From contig NZ_JARXVG010000001.1 of assembly GCF_029892485.1 (NCBI RefSeq), positions 496,001 to 560,000 of the forward strand: a stretch of DNA of 64,000 nucleotides, in the 5' to 3' direction. Below are positions 6,397-17,467 of this stretch, piece by piece. The translations under genes and the position numbers were made by a program. The DNA comes from Variovorax boronicumulans (GTDB lineage Bacteria > Pseudomonadota > Gammaproteobacteria > Burkholderiales > Burkholderiaceae_C). Positions within the stretch are counted from its first letter, which is position 1; each line of letters opens with the position of its first letter. The notes below the pieces were generated by a model that saw only the letters and a program-made list of their open reading frames with translations, was not told the origin of the DNA and searched no databases.

Positions 6397-6669
6397 ATGG
6401 CTGAACGAATTATGGCCGGGCGTCCCACGCCCGCATCCCGCGGCAACTCGACCACGAACACGGACGAGCCCAGCGCGGCGGACCTTCTTGAGAACAAGCT
6501 GGCGCAGTTGAAGTCGCTGCTGTGGTGCTGCTATGGCGATGGCATCGACTGGTTCGATGGCGCGGGGCCGAAGCATTTGGATAACGTCATCTGGCTGATT
6601 GCGGATCTGGTGGATGAGGTGGGGGAGTTGCATCAGCGGTGTTTGAAAGAGCGGGCTCGGCAGACCTGA
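6397..6669 (+). CDS. Small hypothetical protein (90 aa)
   Basis: A 90-aa soluble protein not recognised as a known family. AAGGAAAG lies about 8 bases before the ATG. The first 25 residues are polar and probably disordered. Residues 29-85 look like two helices (LLENKLAQLKSLLWCCYG and LDNVIWLIADLVDEVGELHQ) joined by a G-D-G-I-D-W-F-D-G-A-G-P loop. It is convergent with the large nuclease-NTPase gene, with 113 bp between their stops. It could be an ordinary chromosomal gene at the insertion edge; no partner role can be shown. Confidence 0.6.
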   Translation: MAERIMAGRPTPASRGNSTTNTDEPSAADLLENKLAQLKSLLWCCYGDGIDWFDGAGPKHLDNVIWLIADLVDEVGELHQRCLKERARQT

Positions 6670-6782
6670 TTGATGTGGGCATGCTTTGCCTGCCGGAGCA
6701 CCAACGAACGGGCCGCTGCGAACAAGACGATGTGCTCGCATAGCCAGTGGCCCAACCAACAGCGCAACGCCATAACAGATAG

Positions 6783-9704
6783 CTATGCGCAAAACGCCGC
6801 TTCAACCGCCGGCAATTCATCCCAAATCTTCGAATACACAAGCCCCCTCAAGCTCATTCCTCGAAAACTAGAGCTGGACGCTCGAGGCGCGGAATGAAAA
6901 ACATGCCACACACTTGTCCTATTCCAATGAAAACCTTCATGCTCTACGCCATCAACTACAAAGTTCACCCCATTTTTAGCGTTGCTCTGCACGACTTTCT
7001 CTACGATCCTGACCGAATCAGATCCAGTTTTTGAGCGCGAAAAATAAACATTGAGCCCCATTGAGCCATAGTCCTGCTCAAAACCAAACCTCCCTTCAAC
7101 TACCAAAAATAAAGCTACAGGACCTTCAGAATAAAGTTTGAAATTCGACCTCAACGTGGGGAAATTTTTCTCTACGAGCGCCCGGTAGTTGTAAAGAAAG
7201 GAAGTATACATACCCACTAAAACCTCTTTCCACTCACTTAAAACAATCGGGGCCCGCTTTTCAACAAGTTGATTGGCCGCTATTGTAGGTGGATCGGCTT
7301 CAATACGAGAGCACGTTTTGCGGAGCGCAACTGTAGATTCTAAAATGATAGCTTTTAGTTGCTCCAACTCAATGTAGCGAGATCGTATCGGCGGCATTTC
7401 ATTTTTTTGCAGCGCCTCATCGACTCTTCTAGCAATGGCTTCAATATCCGACGCGCTTAATATGTAGGAAAAAGTTACCACATCTGCATCTATAAATTCC
7501 CGAATTTCACCCACTTTACGCTTCTGCTTCACAAGATCATCTTTAAATGACCGAGTAAGCTCTTCTCTCGCGATACACGCCAGCACAGAATCAAATTGAA
7601 GCGGGTAGTTTATCGATCTTCCATCCGTGCCGAACAATGGTTTAAATAGTTTTTTATTTTCATAAATCGCCTGGACAATCTTTTCACAATTCAACTCAAA
7701 ATTCTCAGTTTCATTGAGTCGCCCATCTTTTATGAGTTCACGAATCGGACTTATTAGCTCGTCCTTTTTAATCGCACCCTCCATATCAAAATTATCCAAA
7801 ACATTCAAACCATAACCAACGGAATGCATAATCCCTGCACCGGCCAGCGATTTAATATTTGATTTCTCTGCAACCTCTTCTACTGGCATGAAATAAATTT
7901 CCTCATCGCCCCTTCCTAAAAGGCGAAACCCATACAACCCACTTTGCAAATTAGCAAGCATCAATTCACCAATAAACCCGATGCGCCCGTTTTCATAAGG
8001 CGGCAATTTCTCCTCAAGAGCAGGAAAATTCTCATCTTTTAAAGAGACATAGTGCTCAAGATACTTCAAGGCTTTAGCTCGCAGTTTTGAGTCAAATATC
8101 CGCTTGCGATCCGTTGTGGCCAAGCGGTAATAAAGAGTGAGGGACGCCCCCCTGGTGCCGGGAAAAGAGGTCGCCCTCAATTCAGCCATCAAAGATGTTT
8201 CATCCATCTTGTCAAACTGAATCGCTTTGAAGCCAACAATGTAATCTCTGAATTGTTGAAAATAGAAACTTATTGCCGATTCCCCTGAATCCTCGAAGCT
8301 TCTCAAAAGTACGCCATACTCAAACAGTTCATCCATTAATCTCTCATTCACCCGCAAATTTAAAGCAGAACGAACTTCATCTTCAAAAATCCATTCTTTA
8401 TCGCCTTCATACAAAAGACGAGCCAAATTTTTTAACGTATTTTCTGCCTGCTGTGCGTCAACTGTTTTTTCGATAGAGCGTTTGTAATATGCCGAAAAAA
8501 ACTCTGCGGAATCGAATGACAGATATTCGACTCCGGAGTCTTGCGCAACATCGAACAGCACTCTGAGCAAAAACGGATTGTTTCTAGCCTGATCGAGCAC
8601 CGCATCTTCAAAGCCGCCAAAAAATTTGTAAGTCTCTCTATAATTTTCAAGAGCATTAAAAAATTCGGGCGGAGAAAATGCAATGATATTCAGAGGCTTT
8701 GTGAGAAAACTAATTGCCGTTCGGTTCCCCCGTTGAAAAAGAAAAGCATTCGCTGCGGAAGTTTTGCAGCTAACGATCAACTTTATTTTTCGATGCTGGA
8801 TAGCCTTTAATACTGCAGCAAGATGATTTACCTTGGATTCAAGCCGCCATTCATCGATTGCATCGATAACTATGGTTAGCGGAACCTCTGCGAGACATGC
8901 CTCAATTCGCTTTATCACTTGAATAGGAGAATCGCCTCCATTGAAAGTCCATGAAAACTCTCGTGCAACCGCCCCTAGAACATCGCCATCCAGCGAAAAT
9001 CCATTAAAAAATAAAACAGGCCTCTCATTTGCAAGCAAGGAATCAACAATTGAACAGAGTTCGCACGTCTTCCCAAGGCCAGACTCACCAAGCAGCATCA
9101 ATCCGGGAAGCGTGCTTTTGTAGAAATTTTCGACCTCCTCTAAAATATTTGCCCTGGATACATGCAATTCCGGGACATATTTTTTCCCGCTGGCAACATT
9201 ACCCTTAATCAACAGAGTTTCACTGGCCACTTGACCCTGACAAAACATGGTAAGGTTGGCCGAATTTAGTTTTAAAAAAACCCTCTGTGCTTCCTCGATA
9301 TCTTCATTAGGTAAAACGGCCTCAAACCCTCGAATCTTAATAGTCGACGGCTCTATTTCCTTCTTTGTCAAAGAGTCATAGAGTTTGAAATCACTCCCAT
9401 TTGTTACGAGCGCGTATGGAGCAAGAGGCTGGACCAGCCGCGCATACGAGATGGCCTGATCCCTATCGTCATCCGTTAAAGCAAGGTGGCCGGCCTTCGT
9501 TTCGACAATGAACAGGTTTTTCTCGTTGCGACGTACGAGGATGTCGAGTCGCCCAGTGACCGTCTCTTTTGACCTCGGTGTTTGGAACACCTGCTTCCCA
9601 ACCCGAACGGAGAACGTTCGTTCGAACTGAAGTTCGTCTACACCAACGCCCGCATCCTCGAGCCACGGCAGGATGTACTTAATCTTGATTTCTTCTTCGT
9701 TCAC
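6783..9704 (-). CDS. HsdR-type nuclease fused to P-loop NTPase; candidate defence protein
   Basis: A 973-aa protein. Residues about 1-135 look like the N-terminal nuclease domain of type I restriction HsdR: Asp54 in GRLDILV, Glu68-x-Lys70 in FIVETKAG, then Gln83-xxx-Tyr87. A P-loop NTPase follows, with Walker A GESGLGKT (206-213) and Walker B IVIDAIDEW (278-286), which fits a STAND/NACHT-like ATPase rather than an SF2 helicase. The remaining 600 residues match nothing I know and may sense a trigger. The start is GTG 9704, with GGAG seven bases upstream. The gene is clearly richer in A and T than all its neighbours, a sign of transfer. A single-gene anti-phage role is inferred, not shown. Confidence 0.85.
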   Translation of the reverse strand: MNEEEIKIKYILPWLEDAGVGVDELQFERTFSVRVGKQVFQTPRSKETVTGRLDILVRRNEKNLFIVETKAGHLALTDDDRDQAISYARLVQPLAPYALVTNGSDFKLYDSLTKKEIEPSTIKIRGFEAVLPNEDIEEAQRVFLKLNSANLTMFCQGQVASETLLIKGNVASGKKYVPELHVSRANILEEVENFYKSTLPGLMLLGESGLGKTCELCSIVDSLLANERPVLFFNGFSLDGDVLGAVAREFSWTFNGGDSPIQVIKRIEACLAEVPLTIVIDAIDEWRLESKVNHLAAVLKAIQHRKIKLIVSCKTSAANAFLFQRGNRTAISFLTKPLNIIAFSPPEFFNALENYRETYKFFGGFEDAVLDQARNNPFLLRVLFDVAQDSGVEYLSFDSAEFFSAYYKRSIEKTVDAQQAENTLKNLARLLYEGDKEWIFEDEVRSALNLRVNERLMDELFEYGVLLRSFEDSGESAISFYFQQFRDYIVGFKAIQFDKMDETSLMAELRATSFPGTRGASLTLYYRLATTDRKRIFDSKLRAKALKYLEHYVSLKDENFPALEEKLPPYENGRIGFIGELMLANLQSGLYGFRLLGRGDEEIYFMPVEEVAEKSNIKSLAGAGIMHSVGYGLNVLDNFDMEGAIKKDELISPIRELIKDGRLNETENFELNCEKIVQAIYENKKLFKPLFGTDGRSINYPLQFDSVLACIAREELTRSFKDDLVKQKRKVGEIREFIDADVVTFSYILSASDIEAIARRVDEALQKNEMPPIRSRYIELEQLKAIILESTVALRKTCSRIEADPPTIAANQLVEKRAPIVLSEWKEVLVGMYTSFLYNYRALVEKNFPTLRSNFKLYSEGPVALFLVVEGRFGFEQDYGSMGLNVYFSRSKTGSDSVRIVEKVVQSNAKNGVNFVVDGVEHEGFHWNRTSVWHVFHSAPRASSSSFRGMSLRGLVYSKIWDELPAVEAAFCA

Positions 9705-9857
9705 GATGCGACTCCGTCTCTCCAGACCACCGCAAAAAACGCGGCAAAGGACATTGTCCCGGGCGAACGCATGTGGAGCGCGTGTTCCTCAAGCTCGATT
9801 GCTCGACCCGCGCGGCCGCGACGTTGAAAGCGTCCGCCCGAGGGTTCATCTGAAAAT

Positions 9858-10538
9858 TCAGCTTTCCTCCACCGACAGCAGTCCCCCAAAGTCCGTCGAC
9901 GCGAAATTGGGATGCACATGAATCCCATGGTCGTCCCGCCAGACGAGGCCGCGGTTTTCCATGTCGCGCATCGTCTTGTTGACCACCTCCCGCGAGAGCC
10001 CCGAATACGAAGCGATCACCGCCTGGGTGATGCGCTTGTCGTAGCCACCCGATCCCGCGGGCGCCAGCTGGGTCAGTTCATAGAGCACGCGGCTGACCAG
10101 CCCTTCCGCCGACAGCGAAGAAATGCGCCGCAGCTGGACGCGCAACATTTCCATGCGCTTCATCGCGAGTTCGAGCAACCCCAGCGCCACCTCCGGGTTC
10201 TTTGCGAAGAGCTCGCGCACGGCCGACACCGGCACCAGGTACACCGACGAGGGCAGTGCCGCAATGAGCGTGGGCACGGCCTGGTAGCGGTCCTGGTTGA
10301 GCGAAGGGCCGTGAAAGAAATCGCCTCGCCGGATGAAGTCTGTCGTGACGTGGTCGCTCTGGGTGCTGCCGCGCACCACGACCCGCAGCAAGCCGCTGGT
10401 CACGCAGTAGATGCGGTCGGTCCACTCGTCCGCCTGGAGCACCAGCTCGTTGCGCCGATAGGAGCGAAGCTCGCTGCACTGAATCAGGGTCTTTCGCTCC
10501 GCCGTGCTGACCTTCTGAAAAAGGGGATGCAGATACAT
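9858..10538 (-). CDS. Crp/Fnr family transcriptional regulator
   Basis: A 226-aa protein of normal family length. Residues about 1-120 form a cyclic-nucleotide-binding-type beta-roll (LVLQADEWTDRIYCVTSGLLRVVV, RRGDFFHGPSL). Residues about 150-215 are a winged HTH (ITQAVIASYSGLSREVVNKTM). There is no N-terminal cysteine cluster, so it is not a true Fnr oxygen sensor, and the cNMP phosphate-binding Arg signature is not obvious. Its gene lies 80 bp downstream of the 75-aa gene and the degenerate GGDEF-EAL gene on the same strand, so the three may form one transcript. A nucleotide signal is possible but unproven. Confidence 0.88.
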   Translation of the reverse strand: MYLHPLFQKVSTAERKTLIQCSELRSYRRNELVLQADEWTDRIYCVTSGLLRVVVRGSTQSDHVTTDFIRRGDFFHGPSLNQDRYQAVPTLIAALPSSVYLVPVSAVRELFAKNPEVALGLLELAMKRMEMLRVQLRRISSLSAEGLVSRVLYELTQLAPAGSGGYDKRITQAVIASYSGLSREVVNKTMRDMENRGLVWRDDHGIHVHPNFASTDFGGLLSVEES

Positions 10539-10618
10539 GGCTGAAGATGGATCCGAGTCATTTGCCGGATTCGCGGCATGCCCGAATCCCGCGCCGACGG
10601 TCGAACTTCATCGACCTG

Positions 10619-10846
10619 TCATCCTGCCTCGGCGTGCTGCCTGGACCTCGGTACGCCCGCCGCTGCAACGGGACGGATCGCAGCCTCGAGCATGAGGTAC
10701 TGCGCCTTGGTCACGCGGTCGTTGGGGTCGACATGAACCGCGAACGATTCGCCGCAGCTCAGCACCTCCTGAACGGCCCGCTGCAGACTGTCGAGCTCGG
10801 CACTCAGCCGGACCAGGCTCAGGTGCAATTCCAGCGGCATGTTCAT
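10619..10846 (-). CDS. Small hypothetical protein coupled to the GGDEF-EAL gene
   Basis: A 75-aa protein beginning MNMPLELHLSLVRLSAELDS. Its ATG overlaps the stop of the upstream GGDEF-EAL gene in an ATGA arrangement, and GAGGAG lies about 8 bases before it, so translational coupling is likely. The first 45 residues look like one amphipathic helix followed by FAVHVDPNDRVTKAQYLM. The tail is Ala/Arg-rich and low complexity. No family is recognised. The coupling suggests it acts with the upstream protein, perhaps as a small partner. Confidence 0.65.
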   Translation of the reverse strand: MNMPLELHLSLVRLSAELDSLQRAVQEVLSCGESFAVHVDPNDRVTKAQYLMLEAAIRPVAAAGVPRSRQHAEAG

Positions 10847-12153
10847 GCGAGGCTCCTCTGCAGGGGTTGGGTCCGCGAAGCCGGCAGAAAGGCTTCTTCG
10901 GCATCGCGCAGGTAGTAGCCCTGCAGCCATTGGGCGCCGGCCTCCGATGCGACATGCATGTCTTCTTCCCTCTCGACACCGTCGACCACGACGTGCGATG
11001 CCAGGTGCGCACAGAGCGCGAGCATGCCGCGCAGGCATTCGCGGCCGAAATCGCTCTCACGCGCCCGGCGCAGAAACGCTGCTTCGAGCTTGACGATGTC
11101 GGGGCGGCAGGCTTGCATGGCGGTCAGGTTGCCGGTTCCGGCGCCGAAGCCCTTGATGGCGATGCGGCAGCCCAGCGACCGGAGCCGGATGCAGAAGTCG
11201 CGAACCGACTCCAGGTTCGAGAATTCCATGCCATCGGAGATTTCGACGATCAGGCGGGCTGCAAGCGACGGCTCGGACTGCAGGGCCGACAGCAGGGACG
11301 CCCACCAGTGGTCGATTCGCGCGCTCTGCGCAAAGACGCTCACCGCCATGCGCGCCGAAGGCTGGCGCCGCAACGCGTCGAGCACCAAGCGCACCGCAAG
11401 CCGGTCGAACACGCGGACGAGGCCGAGGCGCTGCAGGCAGGGCATGAACACCTCCGGCGCGAGCGACGCTGGTTGTCCGGGGCGCGGCGCGAAGCGCGGA
11501 TGAGCCTGGCGATAGAAGGTCGTCTCCAGGGCGTAGGCATCGACCACGGGTCGCCATGCGAGATCGAGGCGCTCGGCTTGCAAGGCTTCGCTGACGCGCA
11601 CCGCCACGTCCATGTCGGCGCGGTAGAACTGTCGCCATCCGTCGGTGTAGTTCTCTTGCGAATCGGGAAAAGGCTGGGCGGTCCACAGCGTGAGCTCGAT
11701 CTCCGAGGCGCCCAACTGCTCCGGTGGGCGCATCTCGATCCAGTCTGCATGCAGTTGCGCCATGGCCGTCATTCCCAGCGCATGGATCGGCTCGCCGCCG
11801 ACGATGGCGAGCAGCATCTCCAGTTCTGCGCTGGCCGGCTGCTGTGGACGCGGCTCGCTGTTCGCAAAGGCATCGTTGCTCCACAGCAGAAAGCAGTCGT
11901 CGCGCAGGCACGCGAGATCGGCCTGGACCGAGGTCAGGAAGCTCGCGCAAAGCCGGCGCTTGACCTCGCAACTCACGCTTATCGCGAAGTCCAGCCCATA
12001 GGCTTCGACCAAGTGCGGCAGATTGGCGATGAAGACGAACGCACAGGCCCTGCGCGCAGGCACCGCAGGCCGCGCCTTCGGCGCTTTGAACACCGGCGCA
12101 GCCGACCCGCTCGACAGGAAGGGCATGCCAGTAATTTGCAAGACAGCGGACAT
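10843..12153 (-). CDS. GGDEF-EAL protein with both active sites degenerate
   Basis: A 436-aa protein from ATG 12153, which has GAGGA four bases upstream; the frame is open to 12264. Residues about 36-120 look like a GGDEF remnant: the signature position reads R84-D-D-C-F. Residues about 185-425 are an EAL fold. The EAL position reads E210-T-T-F-Y-R, and the metal-binding DDFG is K334-G-F-G. Lys355, Glu394 and the QGYYL end are kept. Without the DD pair a c-di-GMP phosphodiesterase should be inactive, so a sensor or adaptor role like E. coli CsrD or YdiV is inferred. It is followed by the coupled 75-aa gene and then the Crp/Fnr gene. Confidence 0.85.
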   Translation of the reverse strand: MSAVLQITGMPFLSSGSAAPVFKAPKARPAVPARRACAFVFIANLPHLVEAYGLDFAISVSCEVKRRLCASFLTSVQADLACLRDDCFLLWSNDAFANSEPRPQQPASAELEMLLAIVGGEPIHALGMTAMAQLHADWIEMRPPEQLGASEIELTLWTAQPFPDSQENYTDGWRQFYRADMDVAVRVSEALQAERLDLAWRPVVDAYALETTFYRQAHPRFAPRPGQPASLAPEVFMPCLQRLGLVRVFDRLAVRLVLDALRRQPSARMAVSVFAQSARIDHWWASLLSALQSEPSLAARLIVEISDGMEFSNLESVRDFCIRLRSLGCRIAIKGFGAGTGNLTAMQACRPDIVKLEAAFLRRARESDFGRECLRGMLALCAHLASHVVVDGVEREEDMHVASEAGAQWLQGYYLRDAEEAFLPASRTQPLQRSLA

Positions 12154-12379
12154 CGCATCCTCGGTGAAAGAATTTTTGCCGACTCGGAGACAGCGCCGGT
12201 TCGTCGCGGCAACAGATCTCCATCCCGCGCTGAAACGCGGGTTTGACGGGTCTTTGAAATTCATGGGTGTTCAGCGCCGCCCCTCGCCGCTGCTTCTCGG
12301 GAGCAGTTGGCGACTCGGCTTGTGAACAAATTGATACTACGGATAACGGTAGGTCCCTGCATTCACTTTCGATTCGCGA
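12154..12379. other. Divergent intergenic region
   Basis: 226 bp between the GGDEF-EAL gene (minus) and the AraC gene (plus). It must contain both promoters. The sequence around 12310-12400 is notably less GC-rich (for example ATTGATACTACGGATAACG), as expected of promoter DNA. I cannot fix exact promoter boxes. Confidence 0.45.
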
Positions 12380-13441
12380 ATGTGTCCCAGTTCACAATTG
12401 AACACAGTCAGCGGAACGCCCATGCTGCCTTGGGACCCGGCGCCGCCAGTGGCCCGGATCGAGGCTGATACCCTGCCCGTTTCGCTTTCTTCCGAAGCAA
12501 AGCCGATGCCAGCGTCACCCGTTGCCGACACCCACCCCGAAGTCATCCCCGCCCCCTGGGCTCGCCTGCGCGACCTGGTCGCGGCGCGCACCCCTGTGGA
12601 CGGCCGTACCGATTCGCTGTATCCGGGCTTGCGCTGCTACCGGTTCTCGTGCCCCGTGCGCTATGAAAAAACACAGCGCCTCACGCCGGGCGTGGTGGTG
12701 GTGTTGCAGGGCCGCAAGACGGCGCTGCTCGCGGGCGAGCGTCGATCGCTCGACTACGGCGCCACCCAATGCCTGGTGCTCGGGGCCGAGGTCGCGTGCC
12801 TTGGCACGGTGGTCGGGGCGAGCGCCGAAGCGCCCTACCTCGCCATTCATCTCGACCTGCCGCCCGAGGTGCTGGTCAAGTCTTTCGTCGCGCTGGCGGA
12901 AAGCGGCACGCTGGCCGAGCCCACCCGCGTGACCGAGAACTTCACGGCCGCGGTGGGGCCGGAAGTGGTCGAAGCCTTCGCCCGCCTGCTGCTGGCGGCC
13001 GATGACCCGGTGGACCGCCGCACGCTGGCGCCGCTCGCGGTCGAAGAGATCGTGCTGCGGCTGCTGCGCTCGGAGGCCGCGGCCGCCATCCGCAGCGCGG
13101 GCGCCGTCACCAAGTCCGGCGCGCGCATACAGGCGGCCATCGCCTTCATGCGCCGCCATCTGGGCCGGCCGCTGTCGGTGGCCGAGATTGCCGGCCACGT
13201 CCACATGAGCCCATCGCACTTCGCGCACAGTTTTCGCGAAGTGGCCGGGGTCACGCCGATGCGCTGCATTCGCGACCTGCGCCTGGAAGAGGCGCGCGTG
13301 CTGATGCTGGGAGCGGGGCTGCGCCCCGGCGATGCGGCGGCACGGGTGGGGTTCGAGAGCGCGGCGCATTTCAACCGCGCGTTCCGCAGGCGCTTCGAGA
13401 CAACGCCCGCTGAGTACGTGCGGCGCGTGCAGTCGAGTTGA
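12380..13441 (+). CDS. AraC family transcriptional regulator
   Basis: A 353-aa protein as annotated from ATG 12380; ATG 12422 is an equally possible start. The N-terminal part (about residues 75-210) matches the AraC_N type: LRCYRFSCPVRYEKTQRLTPG, then VVVLQGRKTALLAGERRSLDY. The C-terminal 100 residues hold the two HTH motifs of AraC/XylS (RRHLGRPLSVAEIAGHVHMS and GDAAARVGFESAAHFNRAF). Family members of this subtype often sit next to oxidoreductases. The small monooxygenase-like gene 130 bp downstream is a possible target. Confidence 0.92.
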   Translation: MCPSSQLNTVSGTPMLPWDPAPPVARIEADTLPVSLSSEAKPMPASPVADTHPEVIPAPWARLRDLVAARTPVDGRTDSLYPGLRCYRFSCPVRYEKTQRLTPGVVVVLQGRKTALLAGERRSLDYGATQCLVLGAEVACLGTVVGASAEAPYLAIHLDLPPEVLVKSFVALAESGTLAEPTRVTENFTAAVGPEVVEAFARLLLAADDPVDRRTLAPLAVEEIVLRLLRSEAAAAIRSAGAVTKSGARIQAAIAFMRRHLGRPLSVAEIAGHVHMSPSHFAHSFREVAGVTPMRCIRDLRLEEARVLMLGAGLRPGDAAARVGFESAAHFNRAFRRRFETTPAEYVRRVQSS

Positions 13442-13572
13442 TTGCGGCGCGGCTGCTTCTTTGTTCTTTCGCAGCCATGGTCAATTTCTTCGCAGCTTCG
13501 CGCCTTGGCGCGGGAAAGGCCGCTGGCTAAGCTGCCTGCTTCCTTTTTCCTTTCAAGCAACTGCGAATTTCC

Positions 13573-13863
13573 ATGGACCCCATCAACGTCATCATCACTT
13601 TCGAAGCCAAGCCCGAGGGCGCCGCGGCGTTCGCCGAACTCATGAACCAGGTCAGGCAGTCGCTGCCGTCGGCGGACGGCTGCCGGGGCGTGCAGCTGTT
13701 CGGGCGCAGCGACAACGCTTGCGTGTTCACGCTGGTCGAGTCGTGGGAATCGAAGAGCCACCATCAGGCCCATATCGCGGGTGCGGTGGCCTCGGGGGCC
13801 TGGGATGCGCTGGCGGCGCAACTGGCTTGCGCGCCGGTCAGTTGCTATTGCAGGGAGCTTTGA
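13573..13863 (+). CDS. Antibiotic-biosynthesis-monooxygenase-fold protein
   Basis: A 96-aa protein with the dimeric ferredoxin-like ABM fold. It has an N-terminal strand INVIITFEAKPEG, a helix AAFAELMNQVRQSLPSADGC, the central RGVQLFGRSDNACVFTLVESWESKS with its typical W-x-S, and a helix HHQAHIAGAVA. Members include YgiN-like quinol monooxygenases and many proteins of unknown substrate. There is no strong Shine-Dalgarno site, but the ATG lies exactly at the domain start. It ends 5 bp before the convergent argC stop and may be controlled by the upstream AraC protein. Confidence 0.82.
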   Translation: MDPINVIITFEAKPEGAAAFAELMNQVRQSLPSADGCRGVQLFGRSDNACVFTLVESWESKSHHQAHIAGAVASGAWDALAAQLACAPVSCYCREL

Positions 13864-13868
13864 GGCGG

Positions 13869-14789
13869 TCAAGCCCCCGTCATCAGGCGCAGGTTCTGCA
13901 CCGCTGCGCCCGCGGCGCCCTTGCCCAGGTTGTCGAGCACCGCGCTCAAGACGATCTGGCCCGTGCGTTCATTCCATGCGACGGCCAGGCTCATGTCGTT
14001 GGAGCCGTTGTGGATCTGCGGGTCCAGTTCGGTCACCGGCGCATCGGAGGACATGGGCATCACCCGCACATGCGCCGCATCGCGGTATCGCTCGCTGAGG
14101 CATTCGTGGATGCGCACGCCGGAGGCATCGGCGGCAAGCATCCGCGCATGCAGTCCGATGGTGAGCACGATGCCCTGCCGGTAGCTGCCATAGGCCGGCA
14201 CGAAGATCGGCCGCTGCGTCAGGCCGGCATAGGCCTCGATTTCCGGCACGTGCTTGTGCTCGAGTGCAAGGCCATAGACCTTCAGCGAATGCGCGCCAGC
14301 CCCTGCCCCGGCCTCGTGCGCTTCCGCCCCCGCCCTCCCCTGGCCCGAATAACCCGAGACGGCATGGATGACCAGCGGACAGTCGGCAGGCAACAGGCCC
14401 GCATCCGTCAACGGCCGCAGCAGGGCCACCGCACCCGTGGGATAGCAACCCGGGTTCGTGACCCGCTGCGCCGAGGCGATGCGTTCGCCCTGCCCCGCGT
14501 CGAGCTCCGGCAGGCCGTAGACCCAGCCCGGGCTGGTGCGGTGCGCCGAGCTGGCATCGATGACACGCACGGCAGGGTTCTCGATCATCGCCACCGCATC
14601 GCGCGCCGCGGCATCGGGCAGGCAAAGGATGGCGATGTCGCTTTCGTTGAGAGCCGCCCTGCGGGCAGCCGCATCCTTGCGAAGGTTTGCCGGCAAGGTG
14701 CGGATGCGAAATTCACCGCCCCGGAGGCGGTTCTGCAGGTCAAGGCCGGTGGTGCCCTGGTCGCCGTCGATGAAGATGTTGAGGTCCAT
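13869..14789 (-). CDS. argC: N-acetyl-gamma-glutamyl-phosphate reductase, type 2
   Basis: A 306-aa protein of the short type 2 class. It reduces N-acetylglutamyl-5-phosphate to the semialdehyde in arginine biosynthesis using NADPH. An N-terminal Rossmann motif [10 protein letters not shown] (6-15) is followed by the catalytic cysteine in NPGCYPTG (Cys115), then [10 protein letters not shown] and the HKHVPEI stretch that shapes the substrate site. It is alone on the minus strand and divergent from a LysR gene 82 bp away, not in an arg cluster. Regulation by that LysR protein is an inference. Confidence 0.92.
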
Positions 14790-14871
14790 GGAGCGCGATC
14801 GTAGGGACGCAGCCTCGATGGCTCCAGCTAAATATATGGAACCCCAGATTAAGAAAAGTTAAATTAGCGGA

Positions 14872-15765
14872 ATGCGTGAACTGAGCCTCGACCATCTGCG
14901 CACCCTCGTCGCCATCGCCGACCTCGGGTCGCTGGCCAATGCCGCGCGCGCCCTTCACCTGGCGGCCCCCACCGTCACCGTGCAGATCGCGGAACTGGAG
15001 TCGCGCCTGGGTGGCCAGTTGCTCGTTCGCGGGCGCGGGCCCGCGCAAGCGACCGCCCTGGGCGAGCGCTTCATCGCGCGTGCCCGCAGGCTGCTCGCAG
15101 ACGCGGACGACGCGGTGGAAGACGTACGGCGCCAGCTCGCCGGCCAGACCGGCCGCGTGCGGGTGGGTGCCTCGACGGGCGCCATCGCGCACCTGCTGCC
15201 GCCCGCGCTCGAACGCCTTGCCCGCGACCATCCCGGCATCGACGTGAACGTGCAGGTGCTGACCTCCAACGACAGCATGGCCCGGCTCGCCGCAGGCAGC
15301 CTCGACCTGGCGGTCGTGGCGCTGCCGCAGGCGCCTGCGCGCGGCGTTCATGTCACGCCCCTCAGGCGCGAGGCTGTCGTCGCCTTCTTGCCGGCCACCT
15401 GGAAAGCTCCCAGGCGGCTGACTCCGCAGTGGCTGGCCGAGCGGCCGCTGATCATGAACGACGCCTCCACAGGCCTTTACCGGCTGACCGCGGAATGGTT
15501 CTCTGCCGCTGGCGTGCATTGCCGGCCGCGCATCGAACTCAACTACAACGATGCGATCAGGACGCTGGTGGCAGCCGGCTACGGCGCGGCCTTGCTGCCG
15601 GAGGAATCGCACGAGCAGCACGCGCGCGATCCCCGCATCGCCGTGCGCCCGCTCAGCCCGGCGCTGTGGCGGCAGCTGGGTCTCGCGGTCAGCGACCGGA
15701 GCGCCAGCGGCCCCGCGCGCTTCGTGCTGGAGGCGTTGCTGCCCGAGAAGGATTCGGCGGCCTGA
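14872..15765 (+). CDS. LysR family transcriptional regulator
   Basis: A 297-aa protein. The N-terminal HTH (DHLRTLVAIADLGSLANAAR) is followed by a linker helix and a periplasmic-binding-type effector domain from about residue 92 (GRVRVGASTGAIAHLLPPAL). The gene is divergent from argC, the usual arrangement for a LysR regulator and its target. The 82-bp spacer is AT-rich (CTAAATATATGG, TTAAGAAAAGTTAA). The effector cannot be told; an amino acid would fit argC. The start at 14872 coincides with the HTH domain start. Confidence 0.92.
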   Translation: MRELSLDHLRTLVAIADLGSLANAARALHLAAPTVTVQIAELESRLGGQLLVRGRGPAQATALGERFIARARRLLADADDAVEDVRRQLAGQTGRVRVGASTGAIAHLLPPALERLARDHPGIDVNVQVLTSNDSMARLAAGSLDLAVVALPQAPARGVHVTPLRREAVVAFLPATWKAPRRLTPQWLAERPLIMNDASTGLYRLTAEWFSAAGVHCRPRIELNYNDAIRTLVAAGYGAALLPEESHEQHARDPRIAVRPLSPALWRQLGLAVSDRSASGPARFVLEALLPEKDSAA

Positions 15766-15795
15766 GCCGTTGCGCCTCACCCGGGCGCCAAAGAC

Positions 15796-16920
15796 TCACG
15801 CCTTCGCCAGTCGCCGCCGCACCTTCACCGCCGAGGCCAGCCCCTCCAGCACCGGCACCGTCTGCGCAAAGCCGATGCAGGCGTCGGTGATCGACACGCC
15901 GTGCTTCAGCGCGATGCCAGGCTTGAGGTCCTGCCGGCCTTCCTCGAGATGGCTCTCGATCATCAGGCCCGTGATGCGCCGCTCGCCGGCCGCGATCTGC
16001 GCCGCCACGTCTTCGGCGACCACGATCTGCCGCTGGTGCTGCTTGCTGCTGTTGCCGTGCGAGACATCGATCATCACCTGCGGCCGCAGGCCGTTCGCCA
16101 GCAGCGCCTGGCAGCTGGACTCCACATCCGCGGCCGAATAGTTGGGCGCCTTGCCGCCGCGCAGGATCACGTGGCAGTCGTCGTTGCCGCGGGTCTCGAA
16201 GATCGCCGCCATGCCCATCTTGGTCATGCCCATGAAGGCATGCGGCGCGCGGGCCGCGAGGATGGCGTCGGCCGCCACCTTCACGCTGCCGTCCGTGCCG
16301 TTCTTGAAGCCGACCGGGCAGCTCAGGCCCGATGCCAGCTGCCGATGGCTCTGGCTCTCGGTGGTGCGCGCGCCAATGGCGCCCCAGGCGATCAGGTCGG
16401 CGATGAACTGCGGGCTCAGCAGGTCGAGAAACTCGGTGCCGGTCGGCAGGCCCAGCGTGGTCAGCTCCAGAAGCAGGCGCCGCGCGCGCTCCAGCCCTTC
16501 GTTGATCGCGAAGCTGCCGTCCAGGTGCGGGTCGTTGATGTAGCCCTTCCAGCCCACTGTCGTGCGCGGCTTCTCGAAGTACGCGCGCATCACGATCACC
16601 AGGTCGTCCTGCAGCGAATCGGCGACCTTCTTCAGGCGCTGTGCGTATTCGATGGCCTGGTCGTGGTCATGGATGGAGCATGGGCCGACCACGACCACCA
16701 GCCGGTCGTCGCGGCCATGCAGCACGTTGGCAATGGCCGCGCGGCTGCCTTCGACCAGCGCCAGCGTGTTGTCGCGCACGGGCACGCGCTCCTGCAGCAG
16801 CGCGGGGGTGATGAGCGGGCGAACGGCGCCGATGCGCACGTCGTCGATGCGGGTGGTGTCGAGCGTGCTGTCGCGGGAGCCGATTTCGGCGTCGTGGAGG
16901 GGGTCGTCGAGGCGGGGCAT
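15796..16920 (-). CDS. aroG: 3-deoxy-7-phosphoheptulonate (DAHP) synthase, class I
   Basis: A 374-aa protein that condenses phosphoenolpyruvate and erythrose 4-phosphate in the first step of aromatic amino-acid synthesis. Hallmarks are VVVGPCSIHD, MRAYFEKPRTTVGWKGYIND, GARTTESQSHRQ, PVGFKNGTDG, and the metal ligand regions MIDVSHGNSSK and IESHLEEGRQ. The frame is open to 17127, but ATG 16920 gives a family-length protein. Feedback specificity (Phe, Tyr or Trp) cannot be decided by eye. No leader peptide or attenuator is visible in the 160 bp upstream. It is convergent with the LysR gene, 30 bp apart. Confidence 0.95.
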   Translation of the reverse strand: MPRLDDPLHDAEIGSRDSTLDTTRIDDVRIGAVRPLITPALLQERVPVRDNTLALVEGSRAAIANVLHGRDDRLVVVVGPCSIHDHDQAIEYAQRLKKVADSLQDDLVIVMRAYFEKPRTTVGWKGYINDPHLDGSFAINEGLERARRLLLELTTLGLPTGTEFLDLLSPQFIADLIAWGAIGARTTESQSHRQLASGLSCPVGFKNGTDGSVKVAADAILAARAPHAFMGMTKMGMAAIFETRGNDDCHVILRGGKAPNYSAADVESSCQALLANGLRPQVMIDVSHGNSSKQHQRQIVVAEDVAAQIAAGERRITGLMIESHLEEGRQDLKPGIALKHGVSITDACIGFAQTVPVLEGLASAVKVRRRLAKA

Positions 16921-17080
16921 GGTGGTGGCGGTGTTTCGGGATGGAACTTCGTCGATTGTCCTCTGGCATCGCGGCAGTCGTCGGCGTAAGCTGGTTGTCG
17001 GTCGGCCAGCCAAGGTGATGCTGGCCAGGCGGCAACCGCTGGGCCGAACCGCTGTGCAGACTTCTGCGAAAGGACTTCCC

Positions 17081-17467
17081 ATGCTGTCCGACTCGTCAGT
17101 CACCACCATGCTTCCGGTCAAGGGCATGGACCGTGCGCGGGCTTTCTACGAGGGCTGCCTGGGCTTGAAACCCGGCGGCCTGCGGCCCGACGGAAAGTTC
17201 GTCTATTCGGTGGGGGGCAGCACGCTGTCGCTGTTTCCCAAACCCGAGGGCACCAAGGCCGACCACACGGCGATCAGCTTCCAGGTCGATGACATCGCTG
17301 CCAGCGTCCAGGACCTGAAGCGCGCCGGCGTGGTGTTCGAGAACTACGACTACCCCGAGCTGAAAACCGTCGACCACGTCTGCGTGCTCGGCTCGGAGAA
17401 GGCGGCCTGGTTCAAGGACACCGAAGGCAACTACCTCTGCATCCACGAGGACATTGCAGAGGCGTAG
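17081..17467 (+). CDS. Glyoxalase/bleomycin-resistance (VOC) family protein
   Basis: A 128-aa vicinal-oxygen-chelate protein. It has the beta-alpha-beta-beta-beta start TMLPVKGMDRARAFYEGCLGL, the strand pair FVYSVGGSTLSLFPK, the second module ISFQVDDIAASVQDLKRAGV, and the end KTVDHVCVLGSEKAAWFKDTEGNYLCIHE. Substrate is unknown; VOC members range from metal enzymes to binding proteins. GAAAGGA lies 8 bases before ATG 17081, which fixes the start; the longer open frame upstream is the antisense of aroG. Confidence 0.88.
   Translation: MLSDSSVTTMLPVKGMDRARAFYEGCLGLKPGGLRPDGKFVYSVGGSTLSLFPKPEGTKADHTAISFQVDDIAASVQDLKRAGVVFENYDYPELKTVDHVCVLGSEKAAWFKDTEGNYLCIHEDIAEA

Follow-up and report, generated by a model that had tools for sequence, protein, structure and literature searches.

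The question raised by this locus is what role is played by a single A+T-rich gene that joins nuclease motifs to a P-loop. The gene lies at 6783-9704 in a 64,000-nucleotide stretch of the Variovorax boronicumulans genome (the window), and a first-pass annotation made from the sequence had proposed that it encodes a horizontally acquired defence protein with a novel sensor region. Our reading, to which we give a probability of about 80%, is that the product, P0001, is a one-gene STAND-type anti-invader receptor with a nuclease effector, resembling the Avs or bNACHT proteins; its role is probably anti-phage defence. Support comes from the order of the domains, from intact and invariant nuclease and ATP-binding residues, from a predicted STAND-like fold, from acquisition as a single gene, from the defence neighbourhoods of some relatives and from a conserved core joined to different, faster-evolving C-termini. 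The features of the gene are as follows.

6783..9704, minus strand: gene for an HsdR-type nuclease, a STAND-like nucleoside triphosphatase (NTPase) and a C-terminal putative sensor, 973 amino acids (open reading frame and translation; full-length Methylomonas homologue, 45% identity)
9330..9704, minus strand: nuclease domain, residues 1-125 (HSDR_N_2; invariant catalytic residues; Foldseek match)
8205..9197, minus strand: STAND-like NTPase module, residues about 170-500 (Avs2 profile match, predicted structure)
9066..9089, minus strand: Walker A GESGLGKT, residues 206-213 (sequence; G206, G211 and K212 in 21/21 family members)
8847..8873, minus strand: Walker B IVIDAIDEW, residues 278-286 (sequence; D281 in 21/21)
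6786..8204, minus strand: C-terminal putative sensor, residues 501-973 (no profile match; common only to group A of the family, described below)

Domains of P0001 and comparison with known systems

The open reading frame, whose coordinates the first-pass annotation had given exactly while leaving the strand unstated, runs on the minus strand from a GTG start with GGAG seven bases 5' of it, and three Flavobacterium open reading frames start at the same residue. Towards the N-terminus, the Pfam family HSDR_N_2 matched residues 48-115 (28.5 bits, gathering score 25, E 1.7e-6) and the NCBIfam EcoAI profile matched residues 2-118 (E 2.8e-8, 32.7 bits), while by Foldseek the predicted nuclease domain matched HsdR of EcoR124I (4xjx, E 4.4e-5). 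The motifs pointed out at the outset, D54, E68-x-K70, Q83-xxx-Y87, Walker A and Walker B, are present at the residues claimed for them, and the putative catalytic set D54, E68, K70, Q83 and Y87 is identical in all 21 aligned family members (an alignment that left out the partial relatives L033, L034 and L048-L050 and the Avs2-type L028 and L029). Because HSDR_N_2 scores above its gathering score and these residues are invariant, we ruled out that the motifs are chance matches, and P0001 has in its HSDR_N_2 nuclease the N-terminal effector domain that is characteristic of AVAST/STAND receptors. Four further Pfam matches (NPHP3_N, HSDR_N, AAA and MmeI_N) were all below gathering.

The P-loop residues G206, G211 and K212, together with D281, are likewise identical in 21/21 members, and E285 is present in all 16 core members and in none of the five distant ones. 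The PADLOC Avs2 profile matched residues 197-492 (E 1.2e-9, 34.5 bits; for scale, the Avs2-type L028 scores 606 bits on this model), and the predicted structure of residues 146-491 matches Avs4, Avs3, NLRC4, NLRP3, CED-4 and Avs5, a fold comparison in which similar Z is also reached by other AAA+ ATPases. With Walker A, Walker B and a STAND-like predicted fold, this part has the features of what would be a central STAND NTPase, and in the predicted structure the module reaches to about residue 500. Of the approximately 600 residues that had been described as of unknown type, about 200 (to about 500) consequently fall within the NTPase module and about 470 are without assignment. We confirmed that P0001 is made up of a nuclease, a STAND-like NTPase and then a C-terminal region.

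This last region, residues 501-973, matched nothing in Pfam, PADLOC or NCBIfam, and to that extent the earlier description of it as of unknown type is supported. Pfam gave neither a match to helical repeats such as TPR, of which STAND sensors are commonly built, nor a match to a DNA-reading domain; weak matches to phrog_9897 (residues 883-927, E 0.11) and to one antibody chain in the PDB (E 1) were set aside. A second structure model of the region had a predicted local distance difference test score (pLDDT) of 48.2. We infer that it is the sensor.

The first-pass annotation had also held that the order of the domains is unlike that of known systems. It is instead the order usual among STAND, Avs and bNACHT proteins, an N-terminal effector, a central STAND NTPase and a C-terminal sensor (PMC12931631, PMC12169576). 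Avs1-4 are armed with nucleases and detect terminase, portal or some other protein of the phage (PMC12931631). In bNACHT25 and bNACHT32 the PD-(D/E)XK nuclease is at the N-terminus, and its D48A change abolishes both defence and DNA degradation (PMC12169576). PMC7159879 describes NTPase-centred conflict systems to which effectors with an endonuclease fold are joined, some NaeI-like, some Mrr-like and some of a further clade.

P0001 shares with Avs1-Avs4 the order nuclease, STAND NTPase, C-terminal sensor (the sensor being putative here), its nearest defence profile is Avs2, on the NTPase module, and its best solved folds among bacterial immune proteins are Avs4 and Avs3. However, its nuclease is of HsdR type, the Avs match is limited to the NTPase part with none to the Avs2 C-terminus, and its 973 residues compare with 1317-1576 model positions for Avs2. 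We rejected P0001 as an Avs2 (NCBIfam NF041813), as it scored 16.2 bits on residues 166-490 against a cut-off of 1000. Like bNACHT25 and bNACHT32 (clade 6), it is a single protein with an N-terminal PD-(D/E)XK nuclease and a central NTPase, which is NACHT in those proteins (PMC12169576), but it has no NACHT or NCH1 match; it was rejected as a bNACHT after no Pfam NACHT match was seen up to E 10. The relatives L042, L035 and L039 matched NACHT at 18.5-20.3 bits, under the gathering score of 26.7.

The EcoAI profile and the EcoR124I fold match liken the nuclease domain to HsdR, but a STAND-like NTPase stands in place of the helicase motor, with no Pfam helicase match in P0001, and membership of the EcoAI/FtnUII HsdR family was rejected at 32.7 bits on residues 2-118 where 550 are needed. 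NTP-dependent conflict systems also join restriction-endonuclease-fold effectors to NTPases, a likeness at the level of description, and the main text of PMC7159879 does not contain the word HsdR. The viral phrog_26510 (786 positions) matches the nuclease part of P0001 (5.8e-13) and residues 27-295 of the Methylomonas relative L042 (1.8e-13), but its length recalls the group D proteins described below and it does not match the C-terminus. In a search of the open PMC literature, no title or abstract start described an HsdR-nuclease STAND receptor, and no paper naming the family came up. P0001 thus falls short of the Avs2, HsdR and NACHT models, yet it is best read, by analogy, as a protein that would work like the nuclease-STAND kind.

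Since the domain order is the same as that of Avs and bNACHT proteins, infection-triggered oligomerisation that activates the nuclease would be the best account of how P0001 works. At rest, P0001 would be kept inactive by its NTPase module. Binding of a foreign molecule (a phage protein most likely) to the C-terminal region would allow this module to take up or exchange nucleotide and to oligomerise. The HsdR-type nuclease domains at the N-termini, gathered in this way, would cleave the DNA of the phage, of the host or of both within the infected cell, so that phage spread is halted. By analogy we infer a trigger, oligomerisation, DNA cleavage and cell death.

Relatives and their C-terminal types

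Matches at E<=0.001 were found in 5/299 family, 4/100 genus, 6/399 order and 6/398 phylum genomes, samples that overlap and in each of which the genome of origin is counted. Among these genomes P0001 was matched over most of its length only in its own genome and in G816 (the same protein as L038), and a profile of the C-terminal region, run among 299 phylum genomes to look for this C-terminus joined to other effectors, matched these two genomes only. In the GTDB species collection, scanned with alignment A2, 179 candidate stretches yielded 18 confirmed loci. These lie in Methylomonas (L042, 45% identity over the full length and the nearest full-length relative), a Methylophaga metagenome-assembled genome (55%, ended by the contig), Flavobacterium, Zetaproteobacteria, Cloacimonadota, Aquibacillus, Candidatus Methanoperedens, Pirellulales, Gemmatimonadetes, cyanobacteria, Azonexus, Massilia and Nitrospinota. 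Carriage by phages or plasmids was considered and rejected: P0001 had no match in phages and none was confirmed in viral contigs; on plasmids only partial matches were seen, for P0001 and for its relatives alike. One plasmid fragment, of 345 amino acids and nearest to group C (46-48% identity), lies at 9965-11002 of L006 (Massilia sp. H6 plasmid NZ_CP103373.1); immediately downstream of it is a gene for an IS3 transposase.

By all-against-all blastp the longer members fell into four groups, with the first approximately 500 residues common to A, B and C; group D, of about 800 amino acids, is more distant and has only the nuclease and P-loop part in common with them. Group A, with C-termini like that of P0001, comprises P0001, L042, L038, L035, L039, L040 and L044; the sequence of L034 is cut before the C-terminus. 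Five of these seven uncut members have 973-981 amino acids, L038 has 1048 and L035 has 1184. In group B (L036, L037 and L041), HEAT_2 matched L037 above gathering (2e-12), and in group C (L020, L043, L045, L046, L047 and L051) HEAT matches below gathering were seen in L020, L045, L046 and L047. When the C-termini of groups A, B, C and D were compared by hhalign, all six cross-pairs gave probabilities of 0.1-0.5, and the positive control, the NTPase cores of A against C, gave a probability of 100 (E 2.2e-39). Judged from sequence, the family would contain three or four mutually unmatched C-terminal types; we do not say firmly four because B and C are both HEAT-like and the profiles are small.

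The identity of P0001 to the Methylomonas protein, taken per 60 residues, is 42-72% before residue 600 and 25-43% after it. In three Flavobacterium pairs the ratio of nonsynonymous to synonymous substitution rates (dN/dS) was 0.05-0.07 in the nuclease, 0.11-0.14 in the NTPase and 0.145-0.18 in the C-terminal part. All three regions are under purifying selection in these pairs, and the C-terminal half is the fastest-evolving part. A constant core with differing, faster-changing C-termini is what would be expected of a receptor with exchangeable sensors. In an N-terminal tree (unrooted FastTree, 408 columns), on which we do not rely, group A was not clearly one clade: its members from Flavobacterium, and L038, branched on the side of group C (local support 0.97), and group B fell with P0001, L042 and L035. 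This pattern suggests that C-termini have been exchanged.

These data also bear on whether the gene might be a broken or neutral passenger without function. Its rarity would suit a passenger, as a full-length match was found in 1/100 genus and 1/299 family genomes, the genome of origin in both cases. The 973-residue frame is nevertheless intact, every catalytic residue is kept and dN/dS in the Flavobacterium relatives is 0.05-0.18 by region, and we regard a passenger as most improbable. The receptor reading, on the other hand, makes this a compact nuclease-STAND family that is unnamed in the defence libraries used, and because most group A proteins are short for their kind a genetic screen for the trigger would be convenient.

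Neighbourhoods of the relatives

PADLOC was run on 30 neighbours, hand-picked by eye from 16 family loci (thresholds 1e-3 or 1e-5 by scan), and 14 of them matched. Named defence systems were found near 8/16 loci, a count made without a random control. The Flavobacterium group A locus L039 has GajA (1.9e-107) and GajB (2.2e-49) of Gabija, and genes for a KAP NTPase and for a tyrosine integrase also lie nearby; in group C, L045 has SspB, SspC and SspD, L043 SspD, L046 TmtA, L051 DndD/PbeC and L020 a partial match to DpdB (7.7e-14). Tmn and HamB lie near L030 of group D, and LmuB near the partial relative L049. At two more loci, L040 (PDC-S54) and L048 (PDC-S03), only PADLOC candidate families were matched; the PDC-S54 candidate gene of L040 (6412-7620, 4.8e-95) is about 380 bp upstream of the group A homologue. 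By annotation, group D records from Rhizobium and Agrobacterium have AbiEii and ABC-three-component genes near the homologue.

It can be seen that homologues are not consistently outside defence contexts, and a defence role, as first proposed, is likely. Two points weigh against it: no defence neighbour appeared among the few scanned at 6/16 loci (L037, L038, L041, L042, L044 and L047), and the nearest full-length relative, L042 of Methylomonas (one neighbour scanned), is among the six. L036 was outside the PADLOC count, and its single Pfam-scanned neighbour is FliD.

A rival reading is a plasmid or conjugation exclusion protein, which would be the same machine set off by mobile elements, and some relatives are indeed on mobile DNA (the Massilia plasmid, and L039 near its integrase). 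However, Gabija, Ssp, Hachiman and Lamassu, found near relatives, are known chiefly as anti-phage systems, and we consider exclusion of this kind very unlikely.

Four of the six group C loci (L045, L043, L051 and L020) are near DNA phosphorothioation genes. L020 is in the congener G389 (G389:C1:4950000-4968000 and beyond), with DndD (1.4e-178) and DndC (7.3e-198) 11-15 kb away; weaker matches to the DndD and DndC models were also seen in 12 and 5 of 14 control genomes. Group C proteins may be the restriction or sensing arm of phosphorothioation systems. HSDR_N nucleases usually belong to restriction enzymes, and together with the group C loci this favours P0001 itself being a modification- or sequence-dependent restriction enzyme, in which the C-terminus would read a DNA feature (a modified base, the lack of phosphorothioate marks or a structure in the DNA) and the nuclease would be gated by the NTPase, as in SspE or GmrSD. 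The group C C-terminus shows, however, no likeness to that of P0001, in which Pfam shows no DNA-reading domain, and in the genome of origin DndC went unmatched and DndD gave only a partial match of 21 bits. We conclude that a restriction enzyme is unlikely and prefer a receptor of invader molecules.

A wider proposal, to which we would give somewhat less than even odds, is that P0001 belongs to an unnamed, phylum-crossing family outside Avs1-5 and bNACHT, in which a core of HsdR-type nuclease and STAND module would have been combined with three or four different C-terminal sensors. The sensor of P0001, of no recognised family, would read an invader molecule and that of group C would work with phosphorothioation systems, the same core thus reading protein patterns or self/non-self DNA marks according to lineage. 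With its constant effector-switch core and different C-termini, the family would serve as a natural experiment in which shifts in the sensing of NLR-like bacterial receptors can be followed, and the group C result points to a connection of STAND-like switches with DNA phosphorothioation that can be tested.

Downstream of the Flavobacterium group A homologue in L044, three successive long open reading frames (944, 340 and 677 amino acids) occupy 11467-17416; the 944- and 677-residue products are without Pfam match, and the 944- and 340-residue products without PADLOC match.

Acquisition at a site shared with congeners

The gene is, as had been observed, richer in A+T than its neighbours, with a GC fraction of 0.439 against 0.668 in the remaining window (z = -13.4 relative to 2.9-kb stretches to the right of the gene; mean 0.672, standard deviation 0.017). 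A search of 61 genus genomes with 2.7 kb of the right flank, and a comparison with seven congener regions, defined two further features.

6718..9762, no strand: acquired segment of about 3.05 kb, the gene with about 60 bp on either side (congener alignments stop at 6641-6717 and resume at 9763)
9763..9853, plus strand: 3'-terminal approximately 30 codons of an HD/LuxR-type gene, complete in congeners (85-89% DNA identity to its 3' end in six of their regions)

Six of the seven regions carry this 3' end. In four of them (L062, L063, L064 and L068) the left flank of the window can be followed in colinear order, at 81-94% identity, to an end between 6641 and 6717; the other two, L065 and L066, gave no alignment to it. 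L067, the seventh, is colinear with the window only at 9865-12054, in the right flank. On the right, a stretch of up to 91 bp (9763-9853) was matched in 12 congeners at 79-89%. The HD/LuxR frame is whole, at 505-591 amino acids, in five of the six congener regions with the stretch (L062-L065 and L068; L066 was not counted, an overlapping frame having been chosen in its list of open reading frames), and the one congener copy scanned, that of L063, matched HD_5 (1.5e-28) and GerE (9.6e-18). The bulk of this gene is gone from the window, where only its 3' end is left beside the acquired gene. Between the landmarks, the four congeners with the colinear left flank have other cargo or almost none and the window has this one gene, with no second open reading frame of 100 amino acids or more inside the acquired segment.

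No flanking direct repeats were found in 6600-9900 and no tRNA in the window, and we therefore prefer replacement between shared flanks. A mobile element with ends was rejected for want of bounding repeats and a tRNA, in a window that was not profile-searched for integrase or transposase. The horizontal acquisition put forward at the outset is thus supported, as replacement by a single gene at a site where four congeners keep synteny with the window.

Congeners hold cargo of their own here: L064, for example, has an AT-rich gene of 368 amino acids (GC at third codon positions 0.38) with no Pfam match, and further small cargo lies between the left flank and the HD/LuxR gene in L062 (3543-6173) and L063. 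Because this small cargo differs between congeners at the same place, the insertion site looks like a minor hotspot.
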